A DNA stretch of 64,000 bases from Salipaludibacillus daqingensis (GTDB lineage: Bacteria > Bacillota > Bacilli > Bacillales > Salisediminibacteriaceae), in NCBI RefSeq assembly GCF_029891575.1, contig NZ_JARZHF010000012.1:1-64000 (forward strand), written 5' to 3'. Shown in pieces: positions 904-21,149 of this stretch. Below the pieces are notes generated by a model. It worked only from the letters and a program-made list of their open reading frames with translations, was not told the origin of the DNA and searched no databases. Each line of letters opens with the position of its first letter. Position 1 is the stretch's first letter. The position numbers and the translations under genes were made by a program.

Positions 904-1344
904 TTATGCTTTTACCCAATTAGCTTCTAGCTCCACACCTGCTGCTTTAAGTGTCGTAAATACAGGGCACCTGGCATCCGTTTTTTCTTTTAATTCATCA
1001 ATTCGGTCTTGAGATTCACTAGTAGAGACTTTAGCATCGACTTGAACTTTTTCGAAAAATGGTCGGACACTTGCATTTCCCATTAATCCTCGAGGATCTA
1101 ACTCACCGCGAATATCAAATTCTATTGATTCTAGATCAAATTTCATCTCTTTTGCTACCATATTTGCAATTACATTTTCACAACCTGCTAAGGATGCTAA
1201 CATGTTCGAGATCGGATCCGGTCCTTCATCAGAACCTCCCATATTTGGTGGTTCATCGATGATGATGGTATGTTGATTTGATTTTAGATTTGCTTTCATT
1301 TTTTCTGTTGTTCCTGTTACGTTAAATGTCATTTTTTCTGCCAT
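904..1344 (-). CDS. OsmC/Ohr-family protein
   Basis: This 146-residue OsmC-fold protein has the two cysteines typical of the family: one in LASLAGCENVIANMVAKEM (around residue 55) and one in DARCPVFTTLKAAG (around residue 126). OsmC/Ohr proteins reduce organic hydroperoxides with these cysteines. The sequence is of the YhfA/general OsmC branch rather than a clear Ohr. AAGGAGG precedes the ATG. The upstream region holds a perfect 14-nt inverted repeat that recurs upstream of the thioredoxin gene at 5326, which suggests shared redox control. Confidence 0.87.
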   Translation of the reverse strand: MAEKMTFNVTGTTEKMKANLKSNQHTIIIDEPPNMGGSDEGPDPISNMLASLAGCENVIANMVAKEMKFDLESIEFDIRGELDPRGLMGNASVRPFFEKVQVDAKVSTSESQDRIDELKEKTDARCPVFTTLKAAGVELEANWVKA

Positions 1345-3109: not shown

Positions 3110-3790
3110 TTAATACTCGTCTAAAAATGATTGAACTTTATCTGCATTTACATGAAGAAGCAGTTTCTTCTTAATATAATTTTCTTTTTTCATTTGACTT
3201 AAAATGGCACTAGTCGTTTCTCTTGTAGAACCGATCATATTGGCCAAATCCTGATGAGTCAATTTCATATTAATGGACTGCCACTCATTTTTTCGCTTGC
3301 CTGTTTTCTCACTTAAGTGAAGCAACAAGTATAGAAGACGATATTTCACATCGCTAAGCGCTATTTTTTCACTTAAACTGTATAACTCCTTTAAACGAGA
3401 TGAAAGGATATTGATGAGCTTTAAAGCAATTTTAGGATTTTTCTCTATGAATGATTCAAATTCATGTTTACCAATGATACAAACATACGTATCTGTCATT
3501 GCTTCTGCATAAATTTGATCATCTGTTAACGTAAGGGAAGAAGTTTCGCCGAATATATTTCCATCAACGAGAACATCGACAGTAAATTGTTTTCCGTGTT
3601 GATTACTGCGAAACAGACGAACCTGTCCTTGCTTCAGGAAAAAAAGTGCTTCAATGGGCTGAGCTGGAGATACAATCATCGTTCCTTTTTTTATAGGTTT
3701 CATTTCACTTAATTCATCAATGACTTTTAAATCTTCCATTGGCAACTCATCTAATAGACTAATTTGAGATAATAATGTTAACTTATCCAT
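3110..3790 (-). CDS. Crp/Fnr-family transcription regulator
   Basis: The protein (226 residues from the chosen start) has an N-terminal cyclic-nucleotide-binding-like beta barrel (about residues 12-125, with GTMIVSPAQPIEALFFLKQG), a long dimerisation helix, and a C-terminal winged helix whose recognition helix reads GSTRETTSAILSQMKKENYI. The Arg-Glu pair of Crp/Fnr is present, but the later Arg of E. coli Crp is replaced. It lacks the cysteine cluster of Fnr, so it is not an Fe-S oxygen sensor by that route. I start at the second Met because GAAAGGAG lies 7 bases before it. It is divergent from the glutaredoxin-like gene and sits inside a thiol-redox cluster that it may regulate. Confidence 0.87.
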   Translation of the reverse strand: MDKLTLLSQISLLDELPMEDLKVIDELSEMKPIKKGTMIVSPAQPIEALFFLKQGQVRLFRSNQHGKQFTVDVLVDGNIFGETSSLTLTDDQIYAEAMTDTYVCIIGKHEFESFIEKNPKIALKLINILSSRLKELYSLSEKIALSDVKYRLLYLLLHLSEKTGKRKNEWQSINMKLTHQDLANMIGSTRETTSAILSQMKKENYIKKKLLLHVNADKVQSFLDEY

Positions 3791-3927
3791 ATATAATCTC
3801 CTTTCACACATTCTATTTGAACCAAGTATACTGAAACGTTCAAAGGAATGACAGCAAAGTGAGATAAAAATATAAGTAGATAACCGATAAATGCTTCATA
3901 TAAAGAAACGTAAGGAGGAGGTTTGTC

Positions 3928-4200
3928 ATGGTGAAATCAATTTTATATACAATGACTGGCTGCAGTAGATGCCATGAAGTGAAAAAACATTTAAAGAAGG
4001 TTAATATGACATATATTGAAAAAAATATTTTAGAGGATCCTGAAAGTATACAAGCATTAATGAAAATAACAGGGGAAGTTTTTACACCAGTTTTGATTGT
4101 TGATAATAAACATGTTCTCAATCAACAAGAAATTTTTTTACTTGAGAAAGATGAGCTTAAATTACATCCAAGAGAATGCACTAATAAGTCTAATCGTTAA
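3928..4200 (+). CDS. Glutaredoxin-like small thiol oxidoreductase
   Basis: This 90-residue protein starts ILYTMTGCSRCHEVKKHLKK, placing a CxxC (Cys-Ser-Arg-Cys) at the beginning of the first helix as in glutaredoxins and NrdH-type redoxins. The TPVLIVDNKHVL segment supplies the expected cis-proline region. It is cytosolic. AAGGAGGAGG precedes the ATG. The TlpA-like gene starts 55 bases downstream on the same strand, so co-transcription is likely. The physiological partner is unknown. Confidence 0.82.
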   Translation: MVKSILYTMTGCSRCHEVKKHLKKVNMTYIEKNILEDPESIQALMKITGEVFTPVLIVDNKHVLNQQEIFLLEKDELKLHPRECTNKSNR

Positions 4201-4255: not shown

Positions 4256-5002
4256 GTGTTATTAACTACATTACCAAATATAGAGTTACAAAGGTTAGAT
4301 GGCGGAACATTTTCTACAGATGAACTGCAAGGAAAGAAAACATTGATTTTCATGTGGGCATCTTGGTGACGCTGTCGTGAACAGCTGCCAGGTTGGCAGC
4401 AATTTTATGAAAAATATAAAGAACAAAATTTTGAGATTCTATCGGTTTCAGTTGACATTCAAGGGCCAAATGTTGTTAAACCTTATTTAGACGGAATTCC
4501 ATTTAGAACGGTCGTCGATACAGAGAATAAGTTATCTTCTTTATTTGGAATGAAACTCATTCCAAATGGAATATACGTTGATGAAAAAGGTACTATTCGT
4601 CTTATGAAACAAGGTTTCCAAGTGACGAACGAAGATCATGTGGAAGCCATAGAAGATCTTATCACTGAAAAAGTCGATAAAGTAATGTTAGACGATATTT
4701 ATTATGATCCAAAAAATGAGGATCATCCATTAGAAATAGAGCTTTCTATTACGAAATTTAAATTAGCAATGGAATTAATGAAGCAGAATAATAAAGATCA
4801 AGCTCTTAAACAGTTAGACGAGGCGTTACGATACGATCCTGATAATTTCGTCATTCGAAAACAAAGGTGGTATATACGTTATCCAGAAAAGTTTGAACCA
4901 ACCATTGATATTGACTGGCAAAATCAACAATTGAAAAAAGAAAAAGAAGTTGAAATGAATGATTGTGGACCTGAAGGTTGCAAGATACCAGGTTCAGATT
5001 AG
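4256..5002 (+). CDS. TlpA-like thiol:disulfide oxidoreductase with TPR tail and in-frame TGA at the active site (candidate selenoprotein, otherwise a pseudogene)
   Basis: A frame opens with GTG at 4256 (GAGGAGG at 4241-4247, 8 bases upstream) and would be 248 residues long, ending at 5002. The only interruption is TGA at 4367-4369, codon 38. It falls exactly after MWASW and before RCREQLPGWQQFY, where TlpA/ResA proteins have the first redox cysteine. The next Cys is two residues on, giving Sec-x-Cys rather than the usual CxxC. The rest of the thioredoxin fold (LSVSVDIQ, GMKLIPNGIYVDEKGTIRL) is intact for 210 codons. It is followed by a TPR-like helix pair (about residues 168-213) and a C-terminal Cys pair (DCGPEGC). 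A hairpin fitting a bacterial SECIS lies just after the TGA. No signal peptide is seen. Without Sec decoding the protein would stop at 37 residues. It sits with glutaredoxin-like and thioredoxin genes. Confidence 0.65.
4367..4400 (+). promoter_or_regulatory. Candidate SECIS element following the in-frame TGA
   Basis: TGA at 4367-4369 is followed by GCTGCCA (4384-4390), loop GGT (4391-4393) and TGGCAGC (4394-4400), a perfect 7-bp stem. The apical loop begins 21 nt after the TGA and starts with G. Known bacterial SECIS elements have a short G-containing loop at a similar distance; in E. coli fdhF the GGU loop is about 18 nt away. SelB binding is not shown. Confidence 0.55.
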
Positions 5003-5325: not shown

Positions 5326-5655
5326 ATGAATAAATTAATTGAAAGCAAGGAAGAGTTTGAAACAACAATCTCAAAGGATACCCCAGCACTACTTAAATTT
5401 TTTGCTGATTGGTGCCCTGATTGTACTCGAATGAACTTCTTTATTGGTGATGTTTTAGCGCAATATGAAGAATTTATTTTTTTAGATATTGATAAAGATC
5501 AATTTCCTGACATAACAGAAAAGTACGATGTTATGGGAATCCCTAGTCTGTTAGTTTTTCAAAACGGAAAGAAAATTGGTCATCTTCATAGCGCTAATGC
5601 AAAAACTTCTGATGAAGTGTCTGATTTTTTAGCAACATTTTTTCAAAAAAAGTAA
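5326..5655 (+). CDS. Thioredoxin-family protein
   Basis: This 109-residue single-domain thioredoxin has the active site FADWCPDCTRMN (CPDC, about residues 28-31), the central LDIDKDQFPDITEKYDVMGIPS block with the cis-Pro after Ile, and a C-terminal helix. CPDC differs from the CGPC of housekeeping TrxA, so it is a specialised thioredoxin-like reductase in the cytosol. AGAGGAAA precedes the ATG. It has its own upstream region containing the shared palindrome. The possible partner is the upstream TlpA-like protein. Confidence 0.87.
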   Translation: MNKLIESKEEFETTISKDTPALLKFFADWCPDCTRMNFFIGDVLAQYEEFIFLDIDKDQFPDITEKYDVMGIPSLLVFQNGKKIGHLHSANAKTSDEVSDFLATFFQKK

Positions 5656-20742: not shown

Positions 20743-21149
20743 ACGCCATTTGTGTTTTGTAAGCCATGTTCTGTACCTCTTGTACTGCAAACGGGAGTCA
20801 TCCCTCGTACGGAGGTGGTAATCATCTGTCTACAGAATCATCTGTCCCTTGATCCGTTAAATTCCTTCTCAAGGGTGCCCCTACCTAATTTTGGGTTTCT
20901 CGCTCGTGGGGTTTACCTCGTTCCACTCTGTTTGTTTCCAAACAGACTCCGTCACTGTGGCACTTTCAAGGTCGTCTTACCATATTCTTACGAACGTAGG
21001 TAAGTTACCTGCCGTTAGCCTGTTAAACAGACTACCCTGACTTATGACTTCGTCAGGCACGAACACTACAATCATCTCAGATTGTGCGAGCATGGACTTT
21101 CCTCTACACCATAAATGATGCAGCGATTACCCAAACACAAATAGATGTC
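20743..21149 (-). ncRNA. rnpB: RNase P RNA, type B
   Basis: Read on the minus strand, the segment contains hallmark RNase P conserved blocks: GTAGAGGAAAGTCCATGCTC near the 5' end, GTGCCACAGTGACG in the middle, CGAGCGAGAAACCCAAA, and AGTACAAGAGGTACAGAACA plus TGGCTTACA near the 3' end. The ends pair to form P1 (ATTTGTGTT with AACACAAAT). The architecture is the Bacillus type B. RNase P RNA is the ribozyme that trims 5' leaders from pre-tRNAs. Its place between ypsC and gpsB matches B. subtilis. Ends are estimated from P1. Confidence 0.97.

Follow-up and report, generated by a model that had tools for sequence, protein, structure and literature searches.

A conserved in-frame TGA and a short SECIS-like hairpin point to a Sec-x-Cys selenoprotein of the thioredoxin fold in Salipaludibacillus daqingensis

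Results

The locus and its interrupted reading frame

The window analysed here is a 64,000-nucleotide stretch of Salipaludibacillus daqingensis DNA (contig NZ_JARZHF010000012.1, positions 1 to 64,000), from a genome assembly of 4.58 Mb in 27 contigs that is 99.99% complete. On its forward strand, at 4256-5002, a frame runs from a GTG start codon, preceded by the Shine-Dalgarno sequence AGGAGG (score 6/6), to a TAG stop codon, and its sole internal stop is a TGA at 4367-4369. This codon separates the residues WASW from RCREQLPGW, with a cysteine codon two codons after the TGA. Read through, the frame would give a protein of 248 residues with selenocysteine (Sec) at position 38, composed of a ResA/TlpA-like thioredoxin fold, a TPR-like domain and a CGPEGC tail, as judged from profiles, relatives and a structural model. 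The first-pass annotation of this DNA had described an intact frame interrupted by one TGA, located after WASW where the fold has its redox cysteine; the frame was found as described, and both the sequence and the model place the TGA at that position. On the same strand, a SECIS-like hairpin of the sequence GCUGCCA-GGU-UGGCAGC lies behind the TGA, at 4384-4400.

Profile searches identify a glutaredoxin-like gene upstream (3928-4200, forward strand), which carries a cysteine-form TGCSRC motif and may be co-transcribed, and a thioredoxin-like gene downstream (5326-5655, forward strand), whose WCPDC motif makes it a candidate electron donor. ORFs similar to the former are found within 6 kb of the relatives at three other loci (L067, L091 and L104). 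A divergent Crp/Fnr-family regulator lies at 3110-3811 on the reverse strand, and it groups with ORFs no more than 6 kb from the relatives in four other loci, one of these ORFs being only 102 amino acids long. The window's left end carries a peroxiredoxin-like gene with weak profile matches, all under cut-off. Two neighbours without an in-frame TGA resemble selenoprotein-related profiles at scores below their cut-offs: the OsmC-like gene at 907-1344 (reverse strand) matches NF041052, 'OsmC-related (seleno)protein', with 79.8 bits (cut-off 95), and the glutaredoxin-like gene at 3928-4200 matches NF041212, 'Uxx-star', with 42.7 bits (cut-off 66). Over the 49 loci compared, the neighbourhood is mostly variable between genera, and for this reason it was dropped as a guide to function.

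In one relative, L023, a peroxidase-related, AhpD-like CxxU gene (L023:957-1484; motif GCHYUMTHHG; TIGR01926, 150 bits, cut-off 81.8) ends 13 nt before the TGA gene, so that two UGA genes stand in succession. The genome concerned (G003) is apparently the S. keqinensis genome that holds L067. A search of the source genome for an AhpD-like CxxU gene of this kind, run without a positive control, gave no match.

Architecture of the encoded protein

Both Pfam AhpC-TSA and Redoxin match the protein, and the NCBIfam matches to ResA, StoA and TlpA, all of them under cut-off, are of the same kinds as those returned by a profile search of the PDB. In the structural model (pLDDT 89.4, pTM 0.85), a thioredoxin-fold domain spanning about residues 1-140 is followed by separate TPR-like helices at about residues 158-235, and residue 38 is located just ahead of helix 39-57, the first helix of the thioredoxin fold. 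The Pfam TPR matches, at 25.3 and 20.9 bits, stay under their gathering scores of 27 and 27.8. The best Foldseek matches are the DsbE-like structure 3gl3 and ResA structures, which align over about 135-143 columns and cover the thioredoxin domain only.

Near the C-terminus, a CGPxGC-like cysteine pair is present in 52 of 81 aligned family members and in 43 of the 45 that form the Bacillota set; the two members of this set that lack the tail are a prematurely stopped frame and one that ends with the stored sequence. The N-terminus, MLLTTLPNIELQRLDGG, enters the fold directly and reading it reveals neither a leader nor an anchor, and the protein is therefore probably cytosolic.

Thiol-disulfide oxidoreductases of the ResA/StoA/TlpA/DsbE kind have a CxxC active site in an exported domain. 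Sequence profiles and the model alike give the window protein their fold, but it differs from ResA and TlpA in having a UxC site, no visible leader, and the added TPR-like domain and tail.

Conservation of the TGA codon among relatives

Species genomes were scanned with search patterns that omit the Sec codon; 88 loci were found and the best 80 were kept. Every one of these best 80 of 88 relatives carries TGA at the Sec codon and none has a cysteine form there. Behind the TGA, 77 of the 80 stay open over 190 codons or more. Of the shorter ones, L085 is stopped early by a TAA, and both L112 and L145 end with the stored sequence. The first-pass annotation had left the case to the codon that relatives carry at this site and to signs of decay behind it, and on both counts the relatives agree with a decoded UGA, L085 being the one with an early stop. 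Three loci looked TGA-free at first: L155 (G046) in fact carries the TGA, ahead of a run of N, and L065 (G031) and L033 (G004) are the truncated and the decayed copy described below.

The Sec-x-Cys arrangement is common to all 81 aligned members, including the window protein, and hence is not a one-off, even though it had been flagged as unusual when the gene was first described. The intervening residue is Arg in 47 members, Gly in 22, Ala in 5, Thr in 3, and Lys, Gln, Ser or Asp in one each; Gly is found in 0 of the 45 members of the Bacillota set. Going by the names of their records, the relatives come from many genera of Bacillaceae and from Planomicrobium, Paenisporosarcina, Alicyclobacillus, Paenibacillus and Paludifilum, and also from Rubrobacter, Thermomicrobiales and Chloroflexota, Poribacteria, Acidobacteria, Armatimonadota and others. 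A tree was built from 76 rows, L073, L110, L085, L112 and L145 being left out of it but retained in the codon and hairpin counts; in this tree a branch with support 100/98 separates the 42 rows of the Bacillota set from all others. This set includes a record labelled Pseudomonas sp. ISL-84, taken as mislabelled because it nests inside the Bacillaceae. Two distant members, one a Bacillus and the other a Rubrobacter MAG, are interrupted a second time, at a Trp codon four positions ahead of Sec (TGA in L073 and TAG in L110). One genome of the family (G010) has two copies, L064 and L066, the second of which is diverged (193 versus 332 bits) and likewise has one internal TGA.

Within the genus, represented by eight genomes, the gene is intact with its TGA in three, namely the source and two congeners at 80% and 60% identity. 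Given that the same TGA recurs in other genomes of the genus, a sequencing error, which the first-pass annotation had named as a possible origin of the codon, is very unlikely. SelB genes score over cut-off in five of the eight genomes, including all three with the intact TGA gene, and the three congeners without selB over cut-off yielded only ResA-type matches that lack the TGA. Of the congeners, G004 has selB and only a decayed relic of the gene (L033:1501-1758), and in G005 selB is present and the gene is absent; a further genome in which SelB is retained, G031, holds a 5'-truncated copy (L065:1498-1887). From these cases it follows that the gene is dispensable and can be lost while SelB stays. 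No plasmid homologues were found at E 1e-20.

Purifying selection acts on the frame beyond the TGA, and constraint is observed on both sides of it. In comparison with the S. keqinensis gene at L067 (79-80% identity), the 210 codons 3' of the TGA gave dN 0.090 and dS 0.694 (dN/dS about 0.13), and the 36 codons 5' of it gave dN 0.114 and dS 0.472 (dN/dS about 0.24). The before-and-after comparison of substitution rates suggested earlier shows constraint on the codons that follow the TGA.

A short hairpin under selection at the RNA level

The hairpin consists of a perfect 7-bp stem closed by a GGU loop, with 14 nt between the TGA and the stem and 21 nt between the TGA and the loop. The first-pass annotation had the stem and loop right, but its figure of 21 nt, given for the start of the stem, is the distance to the loop. 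Folding of the first 45 nt after the TGA gave a minimum free energy of -15.9 kcal/mol, against a mean of -7.5 for synonymous recodings drawn with the codon usage of the gene itself, of which 0 of 200 fold as well; among dinucleotide shuffles of a 49-nt stretch, 5 of 200 did so (z -2.49). Across the family, the fold energy is modestly low relative to synonymous recodings (median z -0.99, with 72 of 84 sequences negative, 79 of the 84 being distinct).

The alignment of the hairpin region (A2) holds 77 distinct sequences of 81, and GU was counted as a pair. The five-pair stem CUGCC/GGCAG is kept in all 77. At its outer end the first base of a Leu codon pairs with the third base of a Gln codon. 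Either base can change silently, and the pair is CG in 69 sequences, UA in 6 and UG in 2, with CA never seen. The Leu codon in the stem is xTG in 77 of 77 sequences, compared with 37% of the Leu codons in background ORFs (at least 150 amino acids, both strands, same loci, some false ORFs included). Further inside, the third bases of a Pro and a Gly codon covary: all 17 Pro codons ending in T are matched by a Gly codon ending in A, all 15 ending in C by one ending in G, and 9 of the 10 ending in G by one ending in C or T, the corresponding background frequencies for Pro-Gly pairs being 29%, 12% and about 53%. Where the Pro codon ends in A, the Gly codon ends in T (15), C (15), G (3) or A (2). 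In a few sequences the Pro is Ser, and in 3 of 77 the Gly is another residue. The covariation score was 0.208 versus 0.076, and 0 of 500 column shuffles, a control that ignores the relatedness of the sequences, reached either the score or the number of double changes; slid controls scored no higher than 0.083. By two other measures, which count pairs or types, the alignment was unexceptional, with 242 and 477 of 500 shuffles as high.

Between the covarying bases lies a conserved GG, and an invariant U follows. The innermost geometry is less uniform, as an inner pair between columns 24 and 27, which would leave a 2-nt loop, is neither Watson-Crick nor GU in 21 of 77 sequences, and the alternative pair between columns 24 and 28 is unpaired in 32 of 77; RNAalifold alone predicts the five-pair stem only. 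The stem is retained and its partners change in concert at silent positions of their codons, which indicates selection on the RNA and not only on the protein. The idea of a chance TGA beside a chance hairpin was rejected on the synonymous recodings and the covariation. Bacterial SECIS elements of the fdhF type are hairpins in the coding region, right behind the UGA, with a GGU loop. The window hairpin resembles the E. coli fdhF SECIS in all these respects, but it is shorter and is distinguished by its conserved GG, covarying flanks and invariant U.

Selenocysteine machinery and co-occurrence with SelB

All four components of the selenocysteine machinery, whose presence in the genome the first-pass annotation had left to be established, were found on the contig of the window above their family cut-offs: tRNA-Sec (selC) with 61.2 bits (cut-off 47), selB with 364.4 (242.25), selA with 525.2 (267.9) and selD with 406.3 (125). 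They lie together at contig position 72.4-79.2 kb, 8-15 kb past the right end of the window, and in its own genome the gene at 4256-5002 is thus outside the sel cluster, about 67 kb away. In 5 of the 49 loci examined (L096, L097, L098, L099 and L102) the order is selB, selA and then the gene, which follows selA at a distance of about 53-118 nt; the five linked selA (553-578 bits) and five selB (367-382 bits) are all over the NCBIfam cut-offs.

In a class-level sample of 398 genomes, drawn evenly with a completeness of 95 or more asked, the gene was detected in 8 (E 1e-35) and SelB in 82 (E 1e-75), and all 8 carriers have SelB. The hypergeometric probability of this co-occurrence is 2.4e-6, or 1.2e-5 excluding the source genome, related genomes not being independent. 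Seven of the eight carriers have one TGA, and the eighth is broken by a run of N, with the TGA also present in its front part. At the family level, 8 of 35 genomes gave a gene match (E 1e-30), seven with the TGA and one truncated, and all eight have SelB; this set discriminates little, since SelB is present in 29 of the 35.

Relation to described families

Among the NCBIfam profiles, NF041054 (WAxxUGC_long, ResA-like WAxxUGC motif-containing protein) matches the window protein best, with 130.2 bits, and it also matches all 28 members of alignment A3 with an E-value of 0.001 or better. The cut-off of this family is 300, the best alignment covers profile positions 83-224 of 354, and the window protein has WASWURC in place of the WAxxUGC motif. 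On account of the 130 bits against a cut-off of 300, we file it as a variant and not as a member.

In a 2022 review (PMC9312934), one of the families given as predicted and not verified experimentally is a 'UGC-containing Prx-like protein'; the source cited there, reference 64, is presumably the marine survey of 2008, PMC2398784. A table in that survey gives 46 Sec sequences and 855 Cys homologues for 'Prx-like (UGC-containing)'. The list in a 2026 review (PMC13188914) has a 'UGC-containing TlpA disulfide reductase family protein'; in this review the words 'bacillus' and 'bacillota' are both absent, 'Firmicutes' not being among the words checked. As far as they are described there, the UGC-containing TlpA/Prx-like selenoproteins share with the window protein a thioredoxin/AhpC-TSA fold and a Sec one residue before a Cys (UxC), and from descriptions, not sequences, we infer that the published UGC-containing TlpA belongs to the same family. 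The available descriptions also differ from the window protein: x is Gly there and Arg (URC) here, the 855 Cys homologues in the marine data contrast with none among the best 80 relatives, and the passages on UGC-containing TlpA name neither a TPR domain nor a CGPxGC tail, both of which the window protein has. No description of the Bacillota form with URC, TPR and CGPxGC was found in the literature searched, whose scope left out most subscription journals.

Discussion

The gene at 4256-5002 almost certainly encodes a genuine selenoprotein, in which UGA would specify Sec38 of a UxC thioredoxin-fold enzyme with a TPR-like domain and a CGPEGC tail. The features by which bacterial selenoproteins are recognized, a conserved UGA at the redox site, a stem-loop 3' of it and selA, selB, selC and selD in the genome, are all present here. 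The candidate selenoprotein reading of the first-pass annotation is accordingly upheld by the TGA in the relatives, the hairpin acting at the RNA level, the sel genes and the constraint on the frame. Selenoprotein genes in general are often annotated as truncated or are missed. PMC5330540 states the same of the Brachyspira genes that it reports.

The anatomy of the locus, together with the sel genes, suggests that SelB carrying Sec-tRNA-Sec would bind the hairpin behind the UGA at 4367-4369, and that the ribosome would then insert selenocysteine at residue 38 instead of terminating. Sec38 would most likely attack a disulfide or peroxide substrate, and Cys40, the last residue of the Sec38-Arg39-Cys40 site, could resolve the intermediate as a selenenylsulfide. 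Electrons for re-reduction might come from the protein's own C-terminal cysteine pair, or from the thioredoxin (5326-5655) or glutaredoxin (3928-4200) encoded next to it. The redox partners are uncertain because the neighbourhood differs between genera, and our proposals for the partners and for the substrate are guesses.

That the locus is instead a pseudogene, an ordinary Cys-type TlpA gene struck by a recent nonsense mutation or misread in sequencing, we consider scarcely credible. A TGA stop does break the frame, and the family has decayed or truncated members in G004 and G031, but the conservation of the TGA across phyla, in all of the best 80 of 88 relatives and with no Cys form, is decisive against it, and the constraint behind the TGA, the hairpin with its compensating synonymous changes and the full Sec machinery argue in the same direction. 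With the codon shared by the congeners, this explanation was discarded. A suppressor tRNA or leaky decoding that reads the UGA as Trp or Cys is also very improbable, if slightly less so: the sequence by itself reveals just a conserved codon and a hairpin, yet the UGA falls where the fold has its redox cysteine, and the gene tracks SelB and stands behind selB-selA in five loci.

A different question is what kind of enzyme the selenoprotein would be. It may act mainly as a peroxidase or another selenol enzyme and not as a disulfide reductase, with the TPR-like domain picking a protein partner, although we think this somewhat less probable than its opposite. The matches to both AhpC-TSA and Redoxin speak for such a role, as do the peroxiredoxin-like (weak, under cut-off) and OsmC-like genes at the left end of the window and the AhpD-like CxxU gene directly upstream in L023; against it, the closest solved folds are ResA and DsbE reductases, and the gene neighbourhood is not constant from genus to genus.

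Coming back to the selenoprotein as such, we tentatively propose, while giving it rather less than an even chance, that it represents a Sec-only thioredoxin-fold/TPR family which is unable to swap Sec for Cys and is recycled by its CGPxGC pair, and whose short SECIS, CUGCC-N-GG-N'-U-GGCAG with covarying N and N', would be a minimal SelB recognition element. If this is true, SelB would read a short SECIS across Bacillota, Chloroflexota, Actinomycetota and Poribacteria. The gene is part of a selenoprotein lineage found in many Bacillaceae genera and their relatives. Since no Cys form occurs among the best 80 relatives, the family is well suited to studying why Cys does not take the place of Sec, and the synonymous covariation in the hairpin provides a testable definition of what SelB reads.

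Two further features of the contig may be recorded. The selD gene (L147:10849-11958, contig 74.8-76.0 kb), close to selA, selB and tRNA-Sec, has an in-frame TGA of its own, in the context KKAGUGCK, and is thus probably a second selenoprotein gene. The sole Rfam match above gathering score in the window is a class B RNase P RNA at 20755-21138 on the reverse strand.
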